Origin: Nanobdellota archaeon
GTDB taxonomy: Archaea; Aenigmatarchaeota; Aenigmatarchaeia; Aenigmatarchaeales; Aenigmatarchaeaceae
Direction of reading: 5' to 3'
Assembly: GCA_018901655.1 (NCBI GenBank)
Contig: JAHIEG010000016.1
Location: forward strand, 1-40,801
Length of the DNA stretch: 40,801 bases
Position 1 is the stretch's first letter. Each line of letters opens with the position of its first letter. Positions 1,328-32,623 of this stretch are shown here, piece after piece. The translations under genes were made by a program, and so were the position numbers. The notes under the pieces are model-generated. The model made no database searches, was not told the DNA's origin, and saw only the letters and a program-made list of their open reading frames with translations.

Positions 1328-1897
1328 TCAAATAAGTCTTTTAACATCCTTTCTAACAGCTTCAATAAACTTAACATCAAGATTATCTACAAGTATTTTC
1401 GATTCTTCAACAAATTTAATAGTATTTTTAATCATATCATCTAGACTAATTATAACACTTGTTTCAACATCATATTGAAGATTTTCTCTCCTATCTCTAA
1501 CATCTTTTAACACGCTTAATAGTTTCTGTTCTATTTTTACTTTTTCAAGTTCTTTAACAATATTAGTTAAACCCTTATACTGATCTAGGAATTTCTTATC
1601 AATCTTCCCGGTCTTAATAAAATATTTTTCAATTACTGCAACTGTACATGTATGATCTTTGCTTTTTAATCCAATTCTAGTTAAAATAGATAAACATGCT
1701 TGATACATAGAATAATAAGCAGATATTACGGTCCAGTCAGAATATTTACCAACTTTCAAATAATTCATAACTTCTATATTTTTTAATGCTTTTTTGTAAT
1801 GCATTTCACTTAATTTAGAACTTTGAGTTGTTATTATAATTCCACCGCCGTCTTTACCTTTTTCTAAACAGTTTTTTATTGTTTTTTCTCTAACCAT
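1328..1897 (-). CDS. HEPN-domain protein of an MNT/HEPN pair
   Basis: The 189-residue protein contains a UPF0332-like HEPN helical core (KYSDWTVISAYYSMYQACLS, about residues 51-70). HEPN proteins paired with a minimal nucleotidyltransferase form toxin-antitoxin systems in which HEPN is the RNase. The usual RX4-6H active-site motif is not obvious: the candidate region reads RRENLQYD, with Gln where His would be expected, so activity is doubtful. The gene overlaps the upstream nucleotidyltransferase by 22 nt and has an AGAGGT ribosome binding site 6 nt before ATG, implying translational coupling. Confidence 0.75.
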   Translation of the reverse strand: MVREKTIKNCLEKGKDGGGIIITTQSSKLSEMHYKKALKNIEVMNYLKVGKYSDWTVISAYYSMYQACLSILTRIGLKSKDHTCTVAVIEKYFIKTGKIDKKFLDQYKGLTNIVKELEKVKIEQKLLSVLKDVRDRRENLQYDVETSVIISLDDMIKNTIKFVEESKILVDNLDVKFIEAVRKDVKRLI

Positions 1898-2523
1898 TTT
1901 AATACCTCTCTCATATAAAATTCCGTTCCAAATAAAATAACATGATTGTTATATATTTCATATACTAATGTTTGCTTTTTATACATTCCTTCCCCAAAGT
2001 CAGTAGTAGTTAGAATAAAAGGTGATATTTTTTTACTATGACTTTCACTTATTCCTTTACACACGCTTCTTAGAGTATGATCCCATTTTTCATATTCAAC
2101 TTTTGTTCCAACTCGTACAATAAATAAGACATCTATATCACTACTCTCTGTCTCTGTTTTTTTAGCAAATGAACCAAATATTATGATACTAACTATAACA
2201 TCGTTGAGCATAAATTGGAATTCACTTAAAATTTTGTCTGAAATAAGTTTTAATATTGGGTTTGATAAGAGTTTTTCTTTTTTCTGACTTTCTATCAACT
2301 CTCCAAGCTTTTCAACAGATGAATTGCTATAATTTAAATTATATATCCCGGTTTTGCCCCGTACTAGTTTGTTTAATATTTTTTCATTAGTCATATTTTC
2401 TAAAACTTTGAATGCCGAAATATATGGCATTTTACTTAGTTTTGATATCTCAACTGAAGTAAACTCTTTTTCGGGGGTTTTGAAAAGAATACTCAATGTT
2501 TTTAATTTATTTTCTGAAAGCAT
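1876..2523 (-). CDS. winged-helix MNT nucleotidyltransferase (antitoxin-like)
   Basis: The N-terminal 60-70 residues resemble a winged helix (FTSVEISKLSKMPYISAFKV). The nucleotidyltransferase domain follows with the pol-beta motif GSF-A..-SDIDVLFIV (GS...DxD). In MNT/HEPN systems the MNT subunit AMPylates and silences the HEPN toxin. The fused DNA-binding domain suggests it also autoregulates, and a 16-bp palindrome lies in its promoter. The family call is solid; the detailed role comes from characterised relatives. Confidence 0.85.
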   Translation of the reverse strand: MLSENKLKTLSILFKTPEKEFTSVEISKLSKMPYISAFKVLENMTNEKILNKLVRGKTGIYNLNYSNSSVEKLGELIESQKKEKLLSNPILKLISDKILSEFQFMLNDVIVSIIIFGSFAKKTETESSDIDVLFIVRVGTKVEYEKWDHTLRSVCKGISESHSKKISPFILTTTDFGEGMYKKQTLVYEIYNNHVILFGTEFYMREVLKWLEKKQ

Positions 2524-2671: not shown

Positions 2672-3115
2672 TTAAAATTTAAATTTAATTGGTTGTTTTC
2701 TTATAATATTTCCAAACATATCAGTTTTTGGCTTTCTACTTGTTTTCTTTTTAGGTTTTTTCTTAGTTGTCTTTTTTACTTTCTTTTTAGTTGTTGTTTT
2801 AACTCTTATGGTTCTTACTTCAGTTCCACCCCATGCTGTCTTAACTTTCTTTCTGACTTTTTTATCTTTCTGGTGTATCTTATCATGACAGTTAGAACAT
2901 ACTAGAATCATATTTACTATTTTATTATCGCTTCGGTTATGGTTTACATGATGTAAAACAGGCCTTACACCCATTATTTTAAAAGATTTTTTACACTTCT
3001 TACATTTACCCTTTTGAAATTCTAGTAAGTGTCTTCTATCTGAAGCTCTTACCGGTTTTCTTTTAATTGTTTTCTTACTACTAAACGGTTCGCTTAACAT
3101 CGGGTTTCTTACCAT
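2672..3115 (-). CDS. HNH endonuclease with lysine-rich C-terminal tail
   Basis: The 147-residue protein has an HNH/zinc-finger nuclease core: CKKC, then LHHVNHNRSDN, then CSNCHDKIHQ (about residues 37-82). This provides the beta-beta-alpha-metal His residues and a structural zinc site. Residues about 88-130 form a Lys/Thr-rich tail (VKTTTKKKVKKTTKKKPKK) like those on the small basic proteins at 26167 and 27261; such tails usually bind DNA non-specifically. A TATA-like TTTTTATATCC about 26 bp upstream suggests a leaderless transcript. The nuclease call is strong; the biological target is unknown. Confidence 0.85.
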   Translation of the reverse strand: MVRNPMLSEPFSSKKTIKRKPVRASDRRHLLEFQKGKCKKCKKSFKIMGVRPVLHHVNHNRSDNKIVNMILVCSNCHDKIHQKDKKVRKKVKTAWGGTEVRTIRVKTTTKKKVKKTTKKKPKKKTSRKPKTDMFGNIIRKQPIKFKF

Positions 3116-3876: not shown

Positions 3877-4437
3877 TTAATCTATATCTCTTTCCAATTT
3901 CTTTATCTTATTATTAATTTCTGATAATTTCTGTCGATCTACTTTGATACCTTCTGATATCAGGTCTTTTAGGTTTTCTTTTTGTTTTTCTAATTTTTTT
4001 ATCTCTTTTTTAATTCCACGTCTAGACTCAATTCCCTTTTTATTTTCGTCCATATACTCCTTAATAAATTTCTTGAGTTCATTTTTATCTTTTATTTCAA
4101 AGATATTTGGATTGCCGGCCTTTTTATTCCATACAACAAAATCAGATATGAACACCCCTCTTTTAAAATTAATACTCATGTAAGTTCTACCTAACATTTC
4201 TGAAATTTCTTCTACCATTTTACTAGTATCTAATAATAATGTGTATTCGTCAGCTGTCCATCCGGAAGAGAATAGTTTATCACCCAGTCTATCGGTTCTT
4301 GTGTCAATAATTTGTTCTGTCTCTACAACCGAATAAACTGTTTTTAGAAATTCAATGAATTTTTCTATTTGTTTTTCATTCATTTTTATAGGTCTGTCAA
4401 AGTCGATATGTCCAAAGTCGCCTAATAATAGCATCAT
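3877..4437 (-). CDS. SANT/homeodomain-like protein with coiled-coil tail
   Basis: I start at ATG 4437, which forms an ATGA overlap with the upstream stop; the longest frame reaches 4458. Residues about 70-125 form a three-helix HTH candidate: GWTADEYTLLL, EEISEMLGRTYMSINFKRG and VVWNKK. The C-terminal 60 residues are a charged coiled coil (KKEIKKLEKQKENLKDLI). The protein is a diverged paralogue of the next upstream gene across its N-terminal region and HTH. It is the last gene of the seven-gene MORC/SNF2/HNH/methyltransferase operon. DNA binding is inference. Confidence 0.65.
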   Translation of the reverse strand: MMLLLGDFGHIDFDRPIKMNEKQIEKFIEFLKTVYSVVETEQIIDTRTDRLGDKLFSSGWTADEYTLLLDTSKMVEEISEMLGRTYMSINFKRGVFISDFVVWNKKAGNPNIFEIKDKNELKKFIKEYMDENKKGIESRRGIKKEIKKLEKQKENLKDLISEGIKVDRQKLSEINNKIKKLERDID

Positions 4438-4817
4438 TTGTGTTTCGCCTCCATACATTCTTTAATCGTGTTTATACCTATTGGCATTTTTTTACCGTTC
4501 TTTTTAGCCCATGCTATTATTTCTGTTGTTTTTGCTCCTCTTGTTAGATCTATACTTGCTTTGCTTCTCTTGAGCTTATTTGCTATTTCTTCATTACTTA
4601 GATCAGAAAATAGTAAAACTATGTCTTTTGGTGTCCATTTTTTACTTGTTGTCTCCCCCTTCTCTCCAGTATATCTTGGCGGTTCGTCTACTTCCCTCCT
4701 TTTTATACCGGGAAAGTTTTGTTCCATGTATTTTATTATCTTTTTCGTTTGTTCTTCAGAAGCCCATGGAGGTATCTTGAAATCAACATATCTATCATGA
4801 CGAATTGTTATTATCAT
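4434..4817 (-). CDS. SANT/homeodomain-like small protein
   Basis: ATG 4817 is preferred over GTG 4826 because GGTG lies 8 nt upstream. The product (127 aa) has an N-terminal strand region (MIITIRHDRYVDFKIPP), a helix, a linker and a Myb/SANT-like unit: KWTPKDIVLLFSDLSNEEIA, then LKRSKASIDLTRG, then IIAWAKK. It shares the pattern WT..LL..EEI..L.R..SI..RG with the following gene. Its start is 1 nt after the zinc-finger gene. A target-recognition or regulatory role in the operon is inferred from position. Confidence 0.65.
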   Translation of the reverse strand: MIITIRHDRYVDFKIPPWASEEQTKKIIKYMEQNFPGIKRREVDEPPRYTGEKGETTSKKWTPKDIVLLFSDLSNEEIANKLKRSKASIDLTRGAKTTEIIAWAKKNGKKMPIGINTIKECMEAKHK

Positions 4818-4818
4818 T

Positions 4819-5139
4819 TTATTCACACCACTTATGTTTCATCATATTTATTCTTTTTATTCTTGTTTTGCAACATTTATCTGAACAGAAAATTTTACTA
4901 CTGCGCGATTTTCTTGCAAATGGTTTTTTACAAACTATACACGAATATACTCTATTTTCCGTTCTTTTTGCAGTTGATTTACCACCTTTCTTTGAATAAC
5001 TATTTTCTAGTTTTTGACATTTTTTTGAGCAATATTTCTTTGTTTTAGTGTTCGCCACAAATTCTTTATTACATCTAATACATTTCTTTGTATTTTGATT
5101 TGGTTCTAACAGTTTGCTGAATAGTTTATATTTTCTCAT
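4819..5139 (-). CDS. double zinc-finger (FCS-like) small protein
   Basis: The 106-residue protein contains two copies of a treble-clef-like zinc motif: CIRCNKEFVANTKTKKYCSK (then KC) and CIVCKKPFARKSRSSKIFCS (then DKC). Each has the spacing CxxC...CxxxC. The rest is Lys/Arg-rich, consistent with nucleic-acid binding. GTGATC lies just before the ATG. It follows the methyltransferase by 14 nt and is followed after 1 nt by the SANT-like gene, placing it inside the operon. No specific family assigned. Confidence 0.7.
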   Translation of the reverse strand: MRKYKLFSKLLEPNQNTKKCIRCNKEFVANTKTKKYCSKKCQKLENSYSKKGGKSTAKRTENRVYSCIVCKKPFARKSRSSKIFCSDKCCKTRIKRINMMKHKWCE

Positions 5140-5153
5140 TTGATCACATATTA

Positions 5154-6326
5154 TTAATCATTTAATTTATTATCATATTTTTTCATTATTACACACCTAT
5201 TTGTTTTAGTTCCTTTATTTTTAGCATTTTTACTGAAAGCTTTGGATATTTTAGGTGCGGATATGTGATTTATTAATATTTTTTCTACTTCAAATCCCGT
5301 TTCACTTGCTAATTCAATAATCAATTCTTCCAAGTTCACTCTTTTTCCATTATTTCCGACATCTCCAACTTCTATTATGCAGTATTTTTTAGATTTCAAA
5401 ACTCTGTGCATTTCATTCATGCTACTTTTGATGAATTTTTTATAGTCTTCCATATTGTTCGTTTGTATTAGAGTTTTTCTCAGATTTTCTTTTTCATAAC
5501 CAAGAAACCAAAACCTTAACCAATTATCATCAATATAATTAATAGCCGCAAGAAATGGAGGAGACGTAATGATCATATCGATAGAATTATTTTTCAGCGG
5601 TAATTTATTAGAATTTGCTATTTTAACATAAGATTCTTTTTGTTCAATAATACTATCTCTTAGAACTGTTTTAGCCTTTTTAAGAATCCTTGGGACGACG
5701 TCTCTAAATTCTGGTTTTGAATGATGTCGTTCACTCATTTTTCGAATAGCCTTTGCACTAGGACTTATTACATTAAAGGTAAAGACAGAAAAAAATGATG
5801 GTGAGTGACCATGTAATCTACAAAGAATAATGGCTTTAATGAATGTGTCTGTCCTATTGTTACCTAATTGTTTTTTAAGGTTCATTATCTGCGAATATGT
5901 TTTATGGTGATAAATATACTTAAATTCATCATATCCATTAAGTATTTCTTTAGAAAAATCAATTTCATATAGCCTCTTTTCAATTTCTTCGTATGTTATG
6001 TTTTTTAATTTTGCTTTTGCTATTTGAATGGCCAATGGTGAGATATCGAAACCTATGCCTATTCTTCCACTGATATTTGCTTCAAGAATAGTAGTACCTC
6101 TCCCAGCAAATGGGTCTAACACCTTATTTCCTCTTGTTGAATAATTTTTTATAAAAAATTCAGGTATTTGTGGTGCAAAGCTTGCTTGATAAGGAGTAAT
6201 ATGGTGTAAACTGTGTTTCTGTCTCTGTTTTTGTATCCAGAAAACTCCCTCTTCTACTTTTATAGTTTTACCAGCTATGTTTTTTTCATAGCCTTTAGAC
6301 AATTCTTTTGTTACTGTTTTTTGCAT
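5154..6326 (-). CDS. DNA methyltransferase (N4-cytosine/N6-adenine type)
   Basis: The start at ATG 6326 is supported by AGGTG 5 nt upstream. SAM-binding motif I is VLDPFAGRGTTILEA (about residue 68). The following strand ends GIGFDISPLAIQIAKAKL. The catalytic motif IV is DMIITSPPF (about residue 255). Ser-Pro-Pro-Phe at this site is typical of N4-cytosine enzymes, but N6-adenine activity cannot be excluded. About 170 residues separate the two motifs and may contain the target-recognition region. It protects host DNA if the neighbouring HNH, SNF2 and ATPase genes form a restriction complex. It follows the HNH gene by 11 nt. Confidence 0.9.
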   Translation of the reverse strand: MQKTVTKELSKGYEKNIAGKTIKVEEGVFWIQKQRQKHSLHHITPYQASFAPQIPEFFIKNYSTRGNKVLDPFAGRGTTILEANISGRIGIGFDISPLAIQIAKAKLKNITYEEIEKRLYEIDFSKEILNGYDEFKYIYHHKTYSQIMNLKKQLGNNRTDTFIKAIILCRLHGHSPSFFSVFTFNVISPSAKAIRKMSERHHSKPEFRDVVPRILKKAKTVLRDSIIEQKESYVKIANSNKLPLKNNSIDMIITSPPFLAAINYIDDNWLRFWFLGYEKENLRKTLIQTNNMEDYKKFIKSSMNEMHRVLKSKKYCIIEVGDVGNNGKRVNLEELIIELASETGFEVEKILINHISAPKISKAFSKNAKNKGTKTNRCVIMKKYDNKLND

Positions 6327-6337
6327 AATCACACCTA

Positions 6338-7084
6338 CTACTTACATATTTTGAAAGGATTTTTAGTTTTTAATAATTTTTCCATTTTATCTCTTTTAGT
6401 TTTTCTACCAAAATGAAATATTTTATGACAGTTTGGGCATACTATTATTATATTATCAGCAGTATCCGATCCACCTTCACTTAATGGTTGGACATGATGA
6501 GATTCTATATACGGTTTATTATCGTCTCTCTTAATGTTTTTATGGCATATAATACATTTATATTCAAAGTACTCTTTTAGAAATTCGACAAGTTGTATAT
6601 CTCTTTTAAATACACCAGTTACCGTATCTTTTTTTTCGATACCAATTACATTACTTTCACTTTTTTTTATAATTGTATCATAGAGACTTTGTTTTGGCGG
6701 TTCTTTTTCAATAACAAAACCTTTTATAATATTAATCAGATTTTGTATTTTATTGACTGCTTCAGAATGACTTATATCACTATCTTTTTTCAATTTTAAT
6801 ACCATATGTCCAATAAATAAATGAGATAATAAGTTGAATTTAAATTCATTATCTATTTCACTGTAATCATAGTACTGTTTAATATTACCAAAACTAAGTC
6901 CTACAAAAGCCGAAAAGCATTTTTCAATATCATTTAAGTTCTCAAGTAATGTCTGGATATTTTCCTCAGAATGTTCACGATGCAAAATCTTTTCCAGATT
7001 TATTATTACTGAATCGTCTATGTCTTCCCCACAAATATCTACGTTTACTTTATTATTATAGAATTGTTCTAACACTTCATTCAT
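6338..7084 (-). CDS. HNH endonuclease with helical N-terminal domain
   Basis: I start at ATG 7084, which makes an ATGA overlap with the SNF2 stop and has AGGTGG 6 nt upstream; the longer frame uses GTG 7093. The C-terminal 75 residues are an HNH nuclease: CIICHKN, ESHHVQPLSEGGSDTADN and CPNCHKIFHFG. The N-terminal 165 residues are a helical domain I do not recognise. HNH proteins cut DNA with a metal-activated water. Sitting between a helicase and a methyltransferase, this is the probable cleaving subunit of the operon. Confidence 0.85.
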   Translation of the reverse strand: MNEVLEQFYNNKVNVDICGEDIDDSVIINLEKILHREHSEENIQTLLENLNDIEKCFSAFVGLSFGNIKQYYDYSEIDNEFKFNLLSHLFIGHMVLKLKKDSDISHSEAVNKIQNLINIIKGFVIEKEPPKQSLYDTIIKKSESNVIGIEKKDTVTGVFKRDIQLVEFLKEYFEYKCIICHKNIKRDDNKPYIESHHVQPLSEGGSDTADNIIIVCPNCHKIFHFGRKTKRDKMEKLLKTKNPFKICK

Positions 7085-9615
7085 TTCAACCACCTATCAA
7101 AATTGCTCATGTAAATGCCAACTAAAGTTATTTTGTTTACATCAAATTCTAATATTTTATTAATGTGCATAATAGATTTTTCTATAAGCGGATTAAAAAT
7201 ATTAAGATTTTGATTTATTTTATTATGAATCTGATTATCGCTACTTTTATTAGTTTCAGAAAATACATTATAATTATTTATTAATTCTATGTCTTTCTTA
7301 TTTGGAAATCTAATACCAATTGATCTTTTTTTCTTTTCATTTTCTACTGAAAATACCATGTCAACAAATGGACTACCCTCTCGTGATATGTCACCACTTA
7401 CAATTATCCCATCATATTTACATAAATCATTTATCATTTCTATTACTAACCAGTGTTCAGATGTTAAAAATTCTATTGCGTTGTTTTTCATAGCAACATT
7501 TTTAAACGGTGTACCGGTAATAGTTTTTGAAGACGTAATTCCACCAAAACCACTAGGAATATTTATTTCAAAAATATTATCTCCCACAGATTTAATATGT
7601 GCTCCTTCCTTTTTATTTATTGATTGTATTATAAATCTTAAAATTTGACTCTCGTCTATTCTGTTAATTTCTTGCTTCATCAATTCGGTTTTATCCCTAT
7701 TTGCTCTTTCAAATATCGCAAGTTCTTCAAATTTATTTTTAGCAATACTCGCCTTTTTAATTTTATCTTCTAATGTTATTTCGAATAACTTAACATCAAC
7801 TTCTGTTAATTCCTCTTGTTTCATTAGTAGTTTAATTATATTACCATCCGTACTTCCTATAATTGCATCCATTGGACCAATTAAATCCTCAAAATCACTT
7901 ATTCTACTAGATAATACATCTAGAATTCTTTGTTCGATAGTATCAAAGGTAGAAAGATTATTAACAATTACAGTTTTTGTTTGCCCTATTCTATCTATTC
8001 TACCTATTCGCTGTTCTAGTTTGACTGGGTTCCATGGCATATCATAATTTATCATAACATGGCAAAATTGAAAATTTCTACCTTCACCACCAGATTCTGT
8101 CGAAATTAAAATCTGGTGATATTTTTTGAATTTTTCAATTTGTTCATTTTTTTCATCTGGTCCAAGCTTACCATTGAAAATAGCCGTTTTAAAGTGTTCG
8201 GATAGAATCTCTTCTATATATTTTTGAGTTTCTAGAAATCTTGTAAATATAATAATCTTTTCTTTCGGATTATTAACCAATATATTTGATATCATATTTA
8301 TCAACATTTCTAATTTCGAATCTTTTTTTATATTTTTTATTTTTGATATAAAATTTGTCAGTGTATTTATTTCTTCTTCAAGAGACTCCCCAGAATAAAA
8401 ACTTTCAACTGCGTTTTCTTCATTTTCTTCAGTATCTTCCATACTATTATTTATAACCATCATATCATTTTTTTCTTTTAAATTAACAACTCGCGTTTCC
8501 ATGGTTTTAAGTAATGCTTTCGGGCTAGATGTCAAGAGCTGTTGGAATATAACCATAACAAACCCATTTCCTCTTTTGCCGACCTTTATATATTTATTAT
8601 ATTGGTTCTTAGTGTATGAAGAAATTTCTTTGTAAATATTTAATTCTTCATTTGTATATTTTATTTTAACAGTATTTACTTCTCTTGGCGGGGAATTGGC
8701 AAATTCTATTCTTCTTTTGTGTCTAATAACATATTTTTTTATTATGTTACTTTGTTCTAAAATATTAATTAAATTCGCATCTTTTGGTTCAATCTTTTCT
8801 TTAAACATGCTCGGGTAATTTGTATATAACCTATTAATTAATAATTTTGATTCATATCTATAATCTTTCCCCCTTGATAGATTACGTATTGCTTCATTAA
8901 TGGAAGGTAAGTATATTTCACGATATGATTTAAAATGATCATAATTATCGAACATGTCTTTATTTATTAGTTCAAGTAAGGAATAAAATTCAAAGTCATT
9001 TAATTGGAAAGGTGTAGCAGTTAAAAATAATGCAGATTCAGTCTTACTTTTTAAACATTCTGCTAGTTCATATTTTTTTGTTTTTCTATTGTTTCCATCT
9101 TTAGAAAAATGCCTTCTTATATGATGCGCTTCGTCAAAAATTAAAAGGCCCCAATCGACATCAGATATATCTTCCTTATTATTTTTAGCATAGTCTGCAG
9201 AAATAATATATCCTCCATAAATTTCATTTTGAAGAATATCTTTTATATTTGATCTCGTAATAATTTCGCACTGTATATCGAATTTATTAGACATTTCTTC
9301 ATGCCATTGTGATACAAGATTAGCAGGAGGTATTATCAAAAAACTATTTATTTTTTTTCTTTTTAACATTTCTTTAATAATCATTCCAGCTTCAATTGTT
9401 TTTCCAAGTCCAACTTCATCCGCTAGTATTAAATTTGGTTTATCTTCACTAATTGCCTTGATTACAGTTTCAATTTGATGTGGGTATATATCTATTTTAG
9501 AGTGCCATGGAGACGTAATTGAATTTTCTCCAATCTGGTTAAGAGCGGTTGCTCTTAACCATAGTGAGAATTCATCAGGCTGAAGACTTATTGGTTTCAT
9601 ATTTTCAATTTTCAT
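7081..9615 (-). CDS. SNF2-family (RapA/HepA-like) helicase/translocase
   Basis: The 844-residue protein has the full SF2 motif set. Motif I is ADEVGLGKTIEAG, motif II is LLIFDEAHHIRR and motif III is LTATPFQLND. The C-terminal RecA lobe has IIFTRFLETQKYIEE, STESGGEGRNFQFCHVMINY and the arginine-finger motif EQRIGRIDRIGQT. Such enzymes translocate on double-stranded DNA. The last 230 residues are a non-helicase domain of unknown role. It overlaps the ATPase gene by 4 nt and the HNH gene by 4 nt. SNF2 helicases next to MORC-like ATPases and methyltransferases are known from restriction-type clusters. Confidence 0.93.
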   Translation of the reverse strand: MKIENMKPISLQPDEFSLWLRATALNQIGENSITSPWHSKIDIYPHQIETVIKAISEDKPNLILADEVGLGKTIEAGMIIKEMLKRKKINSFLIIPPANLVSQWHEEMSNKFDIQCEIITRSNIKDILQNEIYGGYIISADYAKNNKEDISDVDWGLLIFDEAHHIRRHFSKDGNNRKTKKYELAECLKSKTESALFLTATPFQLNDFEFYSLLELINKDMFDNYDHFKSYREIYLPSINEAIRNLSRGKDYRYESKLLINRLYTNYPSMFKEKIEPKDANLINILEQSNIIKKYVIRHKRRIEFANSPPREVNTVKIKYTNEELNIYKEISSYTKNQYNKYIKVGKRGNGFVMVIFQQLLTSSPKALLKTMETRVVNLKEKNDMMVINNSMEDTEENEENAVESFYSGESLEEEINTLTNFISKIKNIKKDSKLEMLINMISNILVNNPKEKIIIFTRFLETQKYIEEILSEHFKTAIFNGKLGPDEKNEQIEKFKKYHQILISTESGGEGRNFQFCHVMINYDMPWNPVKLEQRIGRIDRIGQTKTVIVNNLSTFDTIEQRILDVLSSRISDFEDLIGPMDAIIGSTDGNIIKLLMKQEELTEVDVKLFEITLEDKIKKASIAKNKFEELAIFERANRDKTELMKQEINRIDESQILRFIIQSINKKEGAHIKSVGDNIFEINIPSGFGGITSSKTITGTPFKNVAMKNNAIEFLTSEHWLVIEMINDLCKYDGIIVSGDISREGSPFVDMVFSVENEKKKRSIGIRFPNKKDIELINNYNVFSETNKSSDNQIHNKINQNLNIFNPLIEKSIMHINKILEFDVNKITLVGIYMSNFDRWLK

Positions 9616-11303
9616 TGTTTAGCCCCATCAAGCACATTGTATATTTTTCTAATGAAGTGTTCGTCTTCTAATTCAGAAGTTTCCATGTCTTTGAAAATTT
9701 TGTGTTTTTTAAGGTTTTGAACCATTTCGTATGTTGTAATAATTTTGGTTAGGACGTCAGTGGTTCTATCTGTTCCCGTTGCCGTTCTAAGTTTATTTAT
9801 TTGAGTTATCGGCAATCTTATAGATATTGGCATGGTCTCATTTTCAGGTTTTGATGTTTTTGACATTTCACTCAAAGTATCTGATAGTTGCAGAGTAGTT
9901 TTTTCTCCTGCCAATTCCATAATTTTTTTATTAATTTCTATAGCACCCATATTTTTCGAATCGTCTCTTTGGCTTTTTGCAAATTTTATTATTTCTTTTA
10001 CTATTGCTGTATTAAACTTAGCCTTATTATTTGGTGGTCTATCTTCTGCCAGTGAATGATCCCAAACATCCATTGTTCCTATATATGTCTTAATACCATT
10101 TCTAATAATTCCTGGTGCTTTTTTAAATTCTTGTAATTTTTCTTCTTTTGACAGTCTTCTTCTGTCAGCTCCTTTTCCATATAATTTTTCAATTTTTTTG
10201 TCTGTTGAAAACGTACTCCATTTTTTAGAATATGGTAATATTTCTGCTGAACTTGTACCTTTTACATAGCGTACTAATGTGCCACCATATTCAGATACCC
10301 AACCTGGTACATAAGCAGCAAGTTCAGATCTCGTATTAAAACCATGTTTAAGAGGTGCTTGCCATGGTATATTTTCAGGTTGACCATTGAAAAAAATATG
10401 TGCCTGGAGTCTCATACCGTGTGGATGGTTCATAGGAATTACCGAATTAGCTCTTGTACCAAAACCTACAGTTTCGTCTCTGATTTTTGATGCAAACATT
10501 CTCCCATTACCATACAAATACACACCGTATTCAGATTTGTTTTGTTCAGCTAATATACCGATTATCATTCTTACATTAACCCCATCTATTTCGCCAAAAA
10601 TATGTTCGGTGGGTTCAAAGCCTGGTATAAATGCAAAATTTTCTTCTATGTATTCTTTTGAGATATATGATATCGGTATAACCGGTGTTCCGTTGATATC
10701 TATTTTGATTTTATGACCGTGTTCTGCATCCTCTATTATTCTTGTTCCATATGTTTCAGCGATATGTTTTAATACATTAGAAATTTTTGGAGGTGTTTTT
10801 TTAAGTCGAGGTGATAATTCTCTTATTTCAATTGTAGTAGAATTTTCAGGTATTTTTGTTTTAATTTCAATGGTAACGGGTATGTCCCAGCTAGGTATGT
10901 CTAACCAATTTTTCGGTATAGCTACTTTTTTGGTACAATTACCAATTCTAGTGTATATTCTGATATCTTTTCCAATAGAAAACATTGCTATTTTAGCACC
11001 TTCCCCCCACGTACCTATTGAATATGGGTCCTGATGCAGTGCTTGTCCCATTTTAACTAGTGGTTCTAGTCTGTCGTTTGGAATACCCATATTCCAAGAA
11101 ATCTCTACCATATCTTTTTTAATATTAGTTTTAAAAACCAAATCTTTTAAATGATGTGTTTCGGACCAATGATCTATGGCATTGTCAATGATTTCACACA
11201 TTGCCTCTTCAAAATGTGCGGTATTTGCTTTATTTGATATTATTTTTTTAGATGGTGCTGCATCAAGGTATTCTATTATATTTTCATTTTCTTCCATATT
11301 CAT
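9612..11303 (-). CDS. MORC-like GHKL ATPase with C-terminal RHH-like segment
   Basis: The 563-residue protein opens with a Bergerat-fold ATPase: N-box EEAMCEIIDNAIDH (catalytic Glu and Asn) and a glycine-rich lid GTWGEGAKIAMFSIG. The middle resembles the MutL/MORC S5-fold region. The usual DxGxG box is degenerate (SWNMGIPNDRL). Near the C-terminus, MPISIRLPITQINKLR followed by TTDVLTKIITTYEMV resembles a ribbon-helix-helix DNA-binding unit. The start has an excellent GGAGGA Shine-Dalgarno 7 nt away. It is the first gene of the operon. Prokaryotic MORC ATPases are linked by Iyer, Abhiman and Aravind to restriction-modification clusters. Confidence 0.85.
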   Translation of the reverse strand: MNMEENENIIEYLDAAPSKKIISNKANTAHFEEAMCEIIDNAIDHWSETHHLKDLVFKTNIKKDMVEISWNMGIPNDRLEPLVKMGQALHQDPYSIGTWGEGAKIAMFSIGKDIRIYTRIGNCTKKVAIPKNWLDIPSWDIPVTIEIKTKIPENSTTIEIRELSPRLKKTPPKISNVLKHIAETYGTRIIEDAEHGHKIKIDINGTPVIPISYISKEYIEENFAFIPGFEPTEHIFGEIDGVNVRMIIGILAEQNKSEYGVYLYGNGRMFASKIRDETVGFGTRANSVIPMNHPHGMRLQAHIFFNGQPENIPWQAPLKHGFNTRSELAAYVPGWVSEYGGTLVRYVKGTSSAEILPYSKKWSTFSTDKKIEKLYGKGADRRRLSKEEKLQEFKKAPGIIRNGIKTYIGTMDVWDHSLAEDRPPNNKAKFNTAIVKEIIKFAKSQRDDSKNMGAIEINKKIMELAGEKTTLQLSDTLSEMSKTSKPENETMPISIRLPITQINKLRTATGTDRTTDVLTKIITTYEMVQNLKKHKIFKDMETSELEDEHFIRKIYNVLDGAKQ

Positions 11304-11324: not shown

Positions 11325-11403
11325 TGTTTACAAACACATATGTTTTTTTGTTTTCTGCTGTTTACAAACATGTTTTATTTAATAAACATTATGTTTACAA
11401 GTA
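11325..11403. promoter_or_regulatory. three-copy operator array before the MORC operon
   Basis: TGTTTACAAACA occurs exactly at 11325-11336 and 11359-11370, and as TGTTTACAAGTA at 11392-11403. Each is an inverted repeat (TGTTT-N2-AAACA), and the copies are spaced 34 and 33 nt apart, about three helical turns. The third copy overlaps the operon TATA box; the first two fall in the expected leader. A looser TGTTT...AAACA palindrome lies at 11371-11388. Cooperative repression is the simplest reading. Confidence 0.65.
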
Positions 11404-11462: not shown

Positions 11463-11993
11463 TTAAGAAACAATTGATTCTGGTAACCCAAGTATTTTAA
11501 GTGGTAATTTTTCAAAAAAATAATGACAATCAACTGACTTTATATAATTTAAAACATCCTTATAACGAATTTTCTTAAACCAATCATTTAAAATATAGAC
11601 ATATTCGATTTTAATTCCACTCCCTTGAAATAATTTTTTATATTGTTTTAATTTAAAATCACATGTTTGTAATTTTTCATCTGTGGAACCTTCAACATTC
11701 TGAAACTTCATTTCAATAATAAATAAAGTTTTATTTGTAAAAACAAAAATAGAATCATCTGGTAAAAGACGTCTTGATATTCGCTCTTCCCACTTTATAT
11801 TTAATTTGCATAAAAATTTTTCATATAATTCATATTTACTATACATATTAGCTACAATATTTCCCTTGTACAGAAGTGTATCATCCTTAATTTGATAATT
11901 TTTAATTTTGTTGAAAGCAGTTCTGATATCAGTTTTTTTTTCAAAGGTGAGCCCTGTTACAGTTTTAGCTCCACCTATTCCACCTTTGATCAT
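11463..11993 (-). CDS. PD-(D/E)xK restriction-endonuclease-like protein
   Basis: The 176-residue protein starts MIKGGIGGAKTVTGLTFEKK. It carries LLPDDSIFVF followed by LFIIEMKFQ, the D...ExK catalytic pattern of restriction-like nucleases, then NVEGSTDEKLQTCDFKLKQY. The size and motif string match small type II-restriction-like nucleases as I remember them. It reads the same way as the MORC operon but ends 160 nt before it, and a TATA-like GTTTTAAGG about 26 bp before its ATG gives it its own leaderless promoter. It may pair with the methyltransferase of the operon. Confidence 0.75.
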   Translation of the reverse strand: MIKGGIGGAKTVTGLTFEKKTDIRTAFNKIKNYQIKDDTLLYKGNIVANMYSKYELYEKFLCKLNIKWEERISRRLLPDDSIFVFTNKTLFIIEMKFQNVEGSTDEKLQTCDFKLKQYKKLFQGSGIKIEYVYILNDWFKKIRYKDVLNYIKSVDCHYFFEKLPLKILGLPESIVS

Positions 11994-21041: not shown

Positions 21042-22292
21042 GTGAATAAATTTGTTTTATTATCATTAGTTCTTATTTCAATAGTCTTAGTCAGTGGATG
21101 TATATCTGGAGTTGGAATTGCATTTACTCCAATGGATGATAGTGGGGTAACAGTAGAAGGACTAAACACTGTTAAACAGGCAAATAATCAATTTGCAATA
21201 GATTATTATTCAAAACTTAATGAACAGGAAGATAGTAATATATTTTTTTCACCGTACAGTATTTCTTCAGCATTATCAATGACTTATGAAGGTGCAAAAG
21301 GACAAACAGCAGAAGAAATGGCAAACGTGTTTTATTTTCCAAACGATGATGAGTTAAGAAGATCGGCTTATGCAAGATTATATAATCAAATAAATAAACC
21401 AAATGATGATTTCAAACTAAGTACTGCAAACGCGTTATGGGCACAAGAAGATTATCATTTTGAACAAGATTATTTTGATGTTATAGATAATTATTATGGT
21501 GGAAAAGTCACGAACATGGACTTTATTACAAAAACAGAAGAATCTCGTCTAACAATCAATAATTGGGTTGAAGAACAAACTAATGACAAGATTAAAGATT
21601 TAATTCCGGTTGGTATTCTTACCTCATTAACACGTTTAGTTCTTACAAATGCAATTTATTTCAAAGGAACATGGATTACACAATTTGATTCAAAAGATAC
21701 AAGAGAACAGGATTTCAAAGTAAGTTCTGATAAAACAGTTCAAGCAGACATGATGTCATTAACTGAAGAAGATTTTAGCTATGCAGAAACAGATGATTTG
21801 CAGATATTAGAACTACCTTACGAAGGAGAAGAATTATCAATGTTAATACTATTACCAAAAGAAGATTTAGATCAGATAGAACTTACAACTGATAATTTAG
21901 AACAGTGGAGTTTAGATCTTAGAGAACAAGAAGTTAATATTTATATACCTAAATTCAAATTTGAAACAAAATATATGATGGTTAAAGACTTAATAGAAAT
22001 GGGAATGCCAAGTGCTTTTAATCCTCCAAGTAAACCATCGGGAGCAGATTTTTCAGGAATGACAGGAATAAAAGATCTATATATTACTGCAGTAATACAT
22101 CAAGCTTTTGTTGAAGTTAATGAAGAAGGTACAGAAGCTGCAGCTGCAACAGCTGTTGTTATGGGAAGGGAATCTGCTGGCCCAACAATTCCATTATTTA
22201 GAGCAGATCATCCATTCATATTTGTAATACAACAAAAAGAAACAGGAAATATATTATTTATTGGTAGAGTAATAGACCCAACACTTGAATAG
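21042..22292 (+). CDS. serpin, lipoprotein form
   Basis: A GTG start 25 bp after the TATA box TTTATAAG gives a 416-residue serine protease inhibitor. The signal peptide ends with a lipobox (VLVSGC), so the protein should be lipid-anchored outside the cell. Serpin landmarks are NIFFSPYSISSALSMTYEGA, NAIYFKGTW, ILELPYEGEELSMLILLPKE, QAFVEVNEEGTEAAAATAVV and HPFIFVI...ILFIGRV. The hinge EEGTEAAAAT is the inhibitory type. Counting from it places P1-P1' near MGRES, so P1 is Glu or Arg. Serpins are uncommon in archaea. Confidence 0.95.
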   Translation: MNKFVLLSLVLISIVLVSGCISGVGIAFTPMDDSGVTVEGLNTVKQANNQFAIDYYSKLNEQEDSNIFFSPYSISSALSMTYEGAKGQTAEEMANVFYFPNDDELRRSAYARLYNQINKPNDDFKLSTANALWAQEDYHFEQDYFDVIDNYYGGKVTNMDFITKTEESRLTINNWVEEQTNDKIKDLIPVGILTSLTRLVLTNAIYFKGTWITQFDSKDTREQDFKVSSDKTVQADMMSLTEEDFSYAETDDLQILELPYEGEELSMLILLPKEDLDQIELTTDNLEQWSLDLREQEVNIYIPKFKFETKYMMVKDLIEMGMPSAFNPPSKPSGADFSGMTGIKDLYITAVIHQAFVEVNEEGTEAAAATAVVMGRESAGPTIPLFRADHPFIFVIQQKETGNILFIGRVIDPTLE

Positions 22293-23233: not shown

Positions 23234-23881
23234 TTAATTATTTTTAGAACGGCACATTTCTTTGTATGAACAAGCTGCGCATTTTTTAGGACTATTAGTA
23301 GGTTCAAACTCACGTTCATGCATTGCAAGTTCAGCCATTCGTTGAAGTTTTTCTTCCATCTCATTAAACACATTTTCTGTAAACACCTCTTCCCAAACTG
23401 TTTGTAAAGTATCTCTATTCCTAATTCTAACCCTAATATCAAGATCTGAACGATAACAATCTTTAAACGCAATTGCATACATAAAGAGTTGAGTTTTAGA
23501 TCCAGGATAAGCTATGTCTCCAACTTTATCATCAAGTATTGTAATTCCAGTTGGTCCAATTTCAATATGATCTATTATTCCATTAAGTCTAAAGTTAAAT
23601 GATTTAATTCTTAACTCCCTAGCAACTGATGTTATTCCTTTTTTAGCTAACTCAAGTGCTTCTTCTATAGTCACTTCTTCTAAGTCCTTTGTTTCTTCAA
23701 TAAATTTAGTTTCTAACTCTTTATGTCGCGCTGTTCCTTGAAGCATTTGTTTTGTAGTTATTCTTATTCCTGACCAGATATATTTGAGTTGAAGTTCACA
23801 ATACGATTGAATATTAAACTCTGAGATTGAGAACCAAGGATTATTATTTGAGTCTATAAACATGTAAAGAATTAGAGACAC
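23234..23881 (-). CDS. orphan Cas4-like Fe-S exonuclease
   Basis: The protein has the RecB/Cas4 nuclease core: GTARHKELE (Q/G-H motif), GIIDHIEIGP (metal-binding Asp), ITILDDKVG (D-x-K) and QLFMYAIAF. Four cysteines for a 4Fe-4S cluster are present, one at the N-terminus (SYCELQLKYIW) and three near the end (KKCAACSYKEMC). Cas4 proteins are DNA exonucleases. No CRISPR array or other cas gene is in the window, so this is probably a solitary repair or mobile-element version. It starts at GTG 23881 or ATG 23863. Confidence 0.85.
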   Translation of the reverse strand: MSLILYMFIDSNNNPWFSISEFNIQSYCELQLKYIWSGIRITTKQMLQGTARHKELETKFIEETKDLEEVTIEEALELAKKGITSVARELRIKSFNFRLNGIIDHIEIGPTGITILDDKVGDIAYPGSKTQLFMYAIAFKDCYRSDLDIRVRIRNRDTLQTVWEEVFTENVFNEMEEKLQRMAELAMHEREFEPTNSPKKCAACSYKEMCRSKNN

Positions 23882-25379: not shown

Positions 25380-25670
25380 TTATTCATCTCTACGATTTCT
25401 AACCTTAGCGCAATTAATCATTTGTCTAATATAATTAGTTTTACCAGTTCGACTATATTCATGATCAATTTTAGTATGACAAGATTGACAAAGGGTTATT
25501 AAATTATCAGGACGATCTGATTTTGAAAACTTAAAAGGAATAATATGATGAATCTGAAGACCTTTTTTATTACACTTGTAACATGTGTTTTTATCTCTCT
25601 TTCTAATAAGTTTAGTTAATTCTTTCCAAGCTGGATCACTTATCCTTTTAGATATAGATTCTTTAGTCAT
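25380..25670 (-). CDS. HNH endonuclease, small
   Basis: I start at ATG 25670 because the promoter TATA lies 27 bp upstream; the longest frame begins at GTG 25685. The 96-residue product is one HNH domain: DKNTCYKCNKKGLQIHHIIP, DRPDNLITLCQSCHTKIDHE, with both CxxC pairs and the catalytic HH. A free-standing nuclease of this size may be a homing or defence enzyme. Confidence 0.85.
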   Translation of the reverse strand: MTKESISKRISDPAWKELTKLIRKRDKNTCYKCNKKGLQIHHIIPFKFSKSDRPDNLITLCQSCHTKIDHEYSRTGKTNYIRQMINCAKVRNRRDE

Positions 25671-25690
25671 AAGATTAAAGAACACTCTAT

Positions 25691-31729: not shown

Positions 31730-32623
31730 GTGAAAGAATTATTTGATATAATAAATGGAACTTTGCTTGGTGATGCTAGTATAAGAAGTAGTAATTGGAA
31801 ATATCCTTGCTACAAGTTAACAGCTAAGGATAAAAATTTTTTAAAGTGGTTTCAAAGGTTATTAAATGAATATAAAATAAAATCTTGGATATCACAAGAT
31901 AATAAAATTTCTGGTGTTCATTCCTTGGGTTTTTATATAAACACTTGTCCATTTTCAGAATTTAAAGATTTAGAAAGAAGATGGTATAGTAAGAACGAAA
32001 ATGGTAGTAAAACAAAAATCTTCCCTAAAGATTTAGAATTAAATCAAACTATTTTGCTTCATTGGTATCTTGGCGATGGTAGTTTTCCAAGAAGAAAAAA
32101 TGATAATAATAGAGTTTCACCAGTCGTTTTATCTACAAATAATTTTTCAAAAGAAGATATAGATTTTATGATTAAGAAATTGAAAGAACTTAATCTAAAT
32201 TTCTATCCTATTAGATATAAGAGTGGTTTTACAGGTAATTATTGTGGATATGCCATTTGGTCTAAAGTACAGGATGGAACCCCATTTAGATTCTTTAAAT
32301 TAATTGGTATAGAATGTCCAAAGGAAATATCAAAATGTATAACAGGAAGAAAAGGACTTGGATCAAATCTGCACTATTTTGGAGGCAAATGGCCAACTGA
32401 AGATGATTGGACAAGGATTATGTGCAAAGTAAAAATAGGTTCTATTCTAAGAAACAAGAGATTAGAACTAGGGTGGTCACAAAACCAATTATCCAGAAAA
32501 GTCGGAATTAGGCGAGAAAATATAAGAGATGTTGAATTATGTAAAAGAAACTTTGGTGTTATCAATTTTAGAAAAATCTTAAAGGCTTTAGATTTAAATT
32601 TTAAAGACTTCAGAAATCTTTAA
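31730..32623 (+). CDS. LAGLIDADG homing endonuclease with C-terminal HTH
   Basis: The GTG-started 297-residue protein has two LAGLIDADG helices: LFDIINGTLLGDASI (residues about 4-18) and LLHWYLGDGSF (about 105-117), each providing an active-site Asp. Residues about 235-290 form an XRE-like helix-turn-helix (RNKRLELGWSQNQLSRKVGI). Such enzymes cut long asymmetric DNA sites to spread their gene. It is free-standing, with no intein or host-protein fusion, and splits rps9 from rpo10. Confidence 0.88.
   Translation: MKELFDIINGTLLGDASIRSSNWKYPCYKLTAKDKNFLKWFQRLLNEYKIKSWISQDNKISGVHSLGFYINTCPFSEFKDLERRWYSKNENGSKTKIFPKDLELNQTILLHWYLGDGSFPRRKNDNNRVSPVVLSTNNFSKEDIDFMIKKLKELNLNFYPIRYKSGFTGNYCGYAIWSKVQDGTPFRFFKLIGIECPKEISKCITGRKGLGSNLHYFGGKWPTEDDWTRIMCKVKIGSILRNKRLELGWSQNQLSRKVGIRRENIRDVELCKRNFGVINFRKILKALDLNFKDFRNL

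Follow-up and report, generated by a model that had tools for sequence, protein, structure and literature searches.

The genomic context of a seven-gene operon

We analyzed a 40.8-kb stretch of DNA, hereafter the window, which is a whole contig (G000:C21) of a draft genome of 664,824 bases that is 84% complete; its other contents, which include ribosomal proteins of archaeal type and a subunit of RNA polymerase, fit a small archaeon. Seven open reading frames, all devoid of internal stops, run along the minus strand of the window from position 11303 to 3877. In gene order these encode a MORC-like protein, an SNF2 protein, an HNH nuclease, a DNA methyltransferase, a zinc-finger protein, and two small paralogues that we refer to as SANT1 and SANT2. 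The successive junctions measure −4, −4, +11, +14, +1, and −4 nt, the loosest being that between the methyltransferase and zinc-finger genes, and a strong ribosome-binding site (GGAGGAG) lies 5′ of the MORC-like gene. The original prediction had proposed that these genes form a single operon, and their order, coordinates, tight junctions, common strand, and intact frames all confirm it: the seven-gene operon is real. Coordinates reported here use the most plausible start codons, and while the earlier positions hold overall, the starts of the HNH, SANT1, and SANT2 genes have shifted slightly. A search of Rfam returned no match.

Other genes were noted elsewhere in the window. Overlapping HEPN-like and HTH-nucleotidyltransferase genes (1328–2523, minus strand) resemble a HEPN/MNT-type toxin–antitoxin pair, and there are two further small HNH nuclease genes (2672–3115 and 25380–25685, both minus strand), a Cas4/PDDEXK_1-like nuclease gene (23234–23881, minus strand), and a LAGLIDADG homing endonuclease with a C-terminal HTH_3 domain (31730–32623, plus strand), the last situated directly after the gene for ribosomal protein S9. 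Inspection by eye additionally suggested a serpin-like secreted protein (21042–22292, plus strand) in this small archaeal genome.

A divergent MORC-like protein with a degenerate ATP-binding motif

The first gene of the operon (9612–11303, minus strand) encodes a 563-residue protein. Its match to Pfam HATPase_c_3 (E = 3.4e-4) falls under Pfam's cut-off, no PADLOC model matches it, and a first scan of genome contigs with this single sequence as query yielded no match. Relatives were found by tblastn, with E values of 2e-15 to 1e-7, and at 29 genome loci in a scan of GTDB genomes; identity to relatives is roughly 20–24%. Foldseek, queried with an AlphaFold model in which the GHKL-S5 part is mostly at pLDDT 60–87 and the whole at 53, matched MORC3, MutL, TRAP1, and GyrB at a probability of 1.00, all of the GHKL plus S5 fold. 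Homology and fold search thus agree on N-terminal GHKL and S5 domains and back the GHKL ATPase identity first proposed for this gene, though the Pfam score is sub-threshold. The Pfam, tblastn, alignment, and Foldseek results together identify the product as a divergent prokaryotic MORC-like GHKL-S5 protein, whose relationship to the prokaryotic MORC family is distant.

Conservation of the ATP-binding motifs is uneven. The N-box (E37, N41, D44) and G2 motif (GTWGEGAK) are retained, and the MORC S5 motif, GhXhhpXXRhl, is present as GVYLYGNGRMF at residues 260–270; this is a loose match, with Gly at the 'p' position, in which G260 and R268 are invariant in our alignments. Motif II reads WNMGIP (aligned as WN-MGIP) in place of the DNxGG[IV]P of most relatives. 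Two residues of the adenine-binding motif are thereby lost, the Asp at position 70 and a Gly, both kept in nearly all aligned relatives. In GHKL proteins the motif II Asp is expected to contact adenine, and its absence makes normal ATP binding doubtful unless the sequence is wrong. A full member of the family would have all four ATP-binding motifs intact; with motif II degenerate, we call this protein MORC-like.

Such a motif would be expected if the locus were a decayed or repurposed remnant, with an inactive MORC-like protein in an operon that serves methylation or gene regulation instead of defense. We regard this as decidedly unlikely, as all seven reading frames are intact, the N-box and G2 motifs are kept, and the catalytic motifs of the HNH and SNF2 proteins, detailed below, are undamaged.

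The four-gene core belongs to a known class of MORC operons

Pfam bears out each of the identities originally proposed for the next three genes. The 844-residue product of the second gene (7081–9615, minus strand) is an SF2 translocase of the SNF2/RapA/DrmD type, with matches to SNF2-rel (7e-27) and Helicase_C (3.5e-23), intact DEVGLGKT, DEAH, and QRIGRIDRIGQ motifs, and RapA as its nearest solved structure. The 248-residue HNH nuclease (6338–7084, minus strand) matches PF01844 (E = 3e-10) and, across its HNH region alone, the PADLOC mREase_IV model (2.6e-15); its HNH motif (ESHHVQPLSEGG...N...CPNCH) is intact and sits C-terminally. The DNA methyltransferase (390 residues; 5154–6326, minus strand, with an alternative GTG start at 6332) matches N6_N4_Mtase (1.1e-21) and PADLOC PDLC03325 (242 bits) and carries the motifs DPFAGRGT and TSPPF, the latter catalytic. 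N4-cytosine methyltransferases are among its nearest solved relatives, in a match that spans only about 50 residues.

This combination has a precedent. Iyer et al. (2008; PMC2292703) described a second type of MORC operon that has SWI2/SNF2 helicases, often an HNH or EcoRII-like nuclease, frequently DNA methylases, and, in some operons but not all, a VP1/RAV DNA-binding protein. In the window, a GHKL-S5 MORC-like protein is joined in one operon by an adjacent SWI2/SNF2-family SF2 helicase, an HNH nuclease, and a DNA methylase, and the four-gene core is therefore of this published MORC + SNF2 + HNH (+ methylase) type, which supports the original assignment to the restriction clusters described by Iyer and Aravind. 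The window departs from the type in adding three small genes for putative DNA-binding proteins, in its degenerate MORC motif II, in having an N4/N6-type methylase where the cytosine type is usual, and in its host, an archaeon with a 0.66-Mb genome; in addition, no operon protein has a Pfam match to the optional VP1/RAV protein.

Our GTDB scan also placed MORC relatives inside 22 bacterial DISARM loci together with DrmA, DrmB, and DrmC. The gene order there is C5-methyltransferase, Vsr, DrmD, MmeI-like methylase, MORC, OMT, DrmA, DrmB, and DrmC, with some loci lacking some of the end genes; the MORC-like gene and an adjoining OMT-annotated gene lie between the MmeI-like methylase gene and drmA (L010–L014, L016–L024, L026, L028–L033, and L035). 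Five further loci (L025, L027, L034, L036, and L063), one of them an IMG/VR contig, have MORC, OMT, and a C5-methyltransferase, sometimes with Vsr, and show no DISARM genes over the length covered. Class 1 DISARM with an embedded MORC gene (for example Microvirga terrae pR24_2; L007, L010–L035) shares with the window a MORC-like ATPase, a DrmD-type SNF2 protein, and a methyltransferase, and the operon might be thought a reduced form of that system. In favor are the place of the MORC relatives in the 22 DISARM loci and the 315 bits that the SNF2 protein scores against the DISARM DrmD model, but this score is far under the 610-bit cut-off, so the protein is not a DrmD equivalog. The window has an HNH nuclease instead of the DrmA, DrmB, DrmC, Vsr, MmeI-like, and OMT genes, and tblastn of the L007 proteins against it found only DrmD- and MORC-related stretches. 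With these key genes absent, we rejected membership in DISARM and consider descent by reduction very improbable. In haloarchaea, MORC relatives sit with Dam-family methyltransferases (L005, L006, L008, and L009); these pairs resemble the window in coupling an archaeal MORC-like gene to a DNA methyltransferase and differ in that the methyltransferase is of another family and no SNF2 partner lies alongside. That MORC relatives elsewhere accompany SNF2 proteins, methylases, Vsr, DrmABC, and Dam-family or C5-methyltransferases supports a restriction function for the operon.

No other genome among 156 of the phylum carries the MORC gene: a match in G116 was a chance one lying in an apparent S-adenosylmethionine synthetase, and G003 has a weak, partial GHKL match. 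SNF2 relatives in G029 and G031 adjoin two other large genes, and the stretches searched around them contained no match to the MORC, HNH, zinc-finger, or SANT proteins. Plasmid relatives of the methyltransferase that we inspected had no annotated MORC, SNF2, and HNH set alongside. The four-gene order occurred nowhere else in the collections searched, and the whole seven-gene set was seen once, in one draft genome.

A probable restriction endonuclease gene and a repeat array precede the operon

Two features upstream of the MORC-like gene were missed in the original prediction. The first is a gene (11463–11993, minus strand), 159 nt upstream and on the same strand, for a 176-residue PD-(D/E)XK nuclease, probably a restriction enzyme of type II-like character. 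It matches Pfam PDDEXK_11 weakly (E = 0.0028) and shares 52–57% identity with proteins of Neisseria (Neisseria gonorrhoeae) and G066 and about 31% with those of Lactobacillales; the relatives in Neisseria and G066 retain the active-site residues LPDDS...IIEMK. The similarity to the Neisseria gonorrhoeae and G066 proteins points to lateral gene transfer across the divide between bacteria and archaea. Relatives of the nuclease adjoin DNA methyltransferase genes in Neisseria, Lactobacillales, and G066, and the methyltransferase gene nearest to it in the window is the one in fourth place in the MORC operon. As the family adjoins methyltransferases elsewhere, the upstream nuclease may be a member of the MORC locus. 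The G066 copy (L109, 6005–6525) has two stop codons inside it and an intact N4/N6-type methyltransferase gene adjacent to it.

The second feature, between the nuclease and MORC-like genes, is an array of three copies of the repeat TTGTAAACA at intervals of 34 and 33 nt (11325–11400, minus strand), flanked on one side by a TTTATATA-like box and on the other by the ribosome-binding site of the MORC-like gene. The repeat occurs six times in the window against 1.4 expected, three of these copies being in the array, and its paired spacing is unique to this place in the genome of 664,824 bases. The arrangement is most naturally read as an array for repressor binding, and its uniqueness in the genome supports treating it as a candidate operator.

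Three small genes at the end of the operon

The fifth gene (4819–5139, minus strand) encodes a 106-residue protein in which two CxxC...CSxxC zinc fingers are plain, as originally called. Over the finger region it matches phrog_1271, the finger part of phage HNH nucleases (E = 1.5e-9), and an IMG/VR relative (L114, open reading frame 5935–6921) combines several fingers of this kind with an HNH domain in a single protein; the protein thus resembles, in sequence, the finger half of phage zinc-finger/HNH endonucleases. The gene has no convincing relative among the 156 genomes of the phylum.

SANT1 (127 residues; 4434–4817, minus strand, starting there rather than at the GTG at 4826) and SANT2 (186 residues; 3877–4437, minus strand, not starting at 4458) are clear paralogues, with 28% identity (E = 4e-11), and SANT2 carries an additional C-terminal coiled coil. 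Both had been proposed to be SANT/homeodomain-like proteins. Of that proposal, a pair of small, putatively DNA-binding paralogues stands (SANT1 has the motif WT...EEIANKLKRSKASI), and the three-helix fold is weakly founded: Pfam gives no match above its cut-off, the AlphaFold model is poor (pLDDT 54), and the single family matched is phrog_323, phage D5-like transcription regulators, over a short stretch and at E values of just 6e-4 and 0.018, a likeness that leaves the fold unconfirmed. We discarded SANT2 matches to integrase, head-scaffolding, and ABC-transporter families as noise, as they are weak and fall in the coiled-coil end, and SANT1 matches in G059 and G084 that are marginal and lie amid unrelated genes. 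No relatives of the SANT proteins were found in phage or IMG/VR collections.

A homologous SANT1–SANT2 pair does occur in G147, a genome of the same class, where the two genes (203–592 and 589–1173) share the identical ATGA 4-nt overlap. On its contig of 6.9 kb this pair has no MORC, SNF2, or HNH partner and is followed by a cation-transport-ATPase-like gene; the search for MORC found none anywhere in that draft genome. The contig begins 202 bases upstream of the pair, the 200 bases before it contain no zinc-finger gene, and a partner further upstream is possible. For the SANT pair, this separate occurrence is among the outcomes that the original prediction had named as refuting it. The G147 SANT2 was not found in plasmids, and none of the other MORC/SNF2 loci compared encodes a recognizable zinc-finger or SANT protein.

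These findings bear on the role of the operon's tail, for which the original prediction had suggested target recognition. The zinc fingers and a SANT1/SANT2 heterodimer could serve as specificity subunits that find the target and load the SNF2/MORC/HNH machine: the three genes are codirectional with overlaps or gaps of 1–14 nt, all three products resemble DNA-binding proteins, and phages have fingers of this kind joined to HNH nucleases. We nonetheless find this unsupported and judge it unlikely. N4/N6-type methyltransferases like that of the window usually bring their own target recognition, the SANT pair exists apart from the system in G147, and the other MORC/SNF2 loci lack such genes; the last two points speak more for a regulatory or passenger pair that is complete in itself than for a unit dedicated to specificity. 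At the other extreme, the four enzymes, perhaps with the upstream nuclease, may by themselves make up the system, with the zinc-finger and SANT genes as unrelated passengers behind the same promoter. The stand-alone two-gene unit in G147, the loose +14-nt junction between the methyltransferase and zinc-finger genes, and the lack of a second example of the full set all fit, but the +1 and −4 junctions are tight and the genes keep to one strand throughout, and we consider full independence somewhat unlikely. For the tail, a regulatory or accessory role is more likely than target recognition, and the SANT pair in particular is more likely to consist of regulators or passengers than to be a target-recognition part.

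A model for the locus

On balance, and with moderate confidence, the locus as a whole is best explained as a restriction-modification-type defense operon whose SANT pair is regulatory or a passenger and not target-recognizing. Reasoning from the activities of the protein families, the methyltransferase would mark the host's own DNA at N4-cytosine or N6-adenine, the SNF2 protein would track on double-stranded DNA, the MORC-like protein could act there as a dimerizing clamp or coupling factor, and the HNH nuclease would cut DNA without the mark, presumably that of viruses. The two-finger zinc protein probably aids DNA binding by the HNH nuclease, and the upstream PD-(D/E)XK nuclease may be the locus's second restriction enzyme, likewise cutting unmarked DNA. 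SANT1 and SANT2, at the end of the transcript, are most likely regulators of the operon (or a passenger cassette), plausibly acting via the three TTGTAAACA repeats; the weak matches of both to a phage transcription-regulator family support the regulator reading. Three observations weaken this explanation: motif II is degenerate, the four-gene order is seen nowhere else, and the MORC gene has no PADLOC model.

A bolder arrangement can be envisaged in which a MORC restriction machine works without a normal adenine-binding motif and uses the zinc-finger protein and a SANT1/SANT2 heterodimer as separate DNA-reading subunits. We think this improbable; if true, archaea would have a counterpart of the way in which MORC, SNF2, and SANT chromatin proteins are paired in eukaryotes.

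Significance

The operon type of the four-gene core was already predicted in 2008 (PMC2292703). New here are the lost motif II residues, the upstream nuclease, the TTGTAAACA array, the likeness of the zinc fingers to those of phage HNH nucleases, and the SANT paralogue pair that also occurs alone in G147. Known restriction and CRISPR systems are reportedly scarce in DPANN archaea (PMC12988326), which makes a large restriction-type operon of several genes unusual in a genome of 0.66 Mb. Systems of this type are the proposed source of the MORC + SNF2 partnership in eukaryotic chromatin proteins (PMC2292703). This operon is a small, testable version of that partnership, and the possible operator array, with the paired small putative DNA-binding proteins, may provide a handle on how such a system is controlled.
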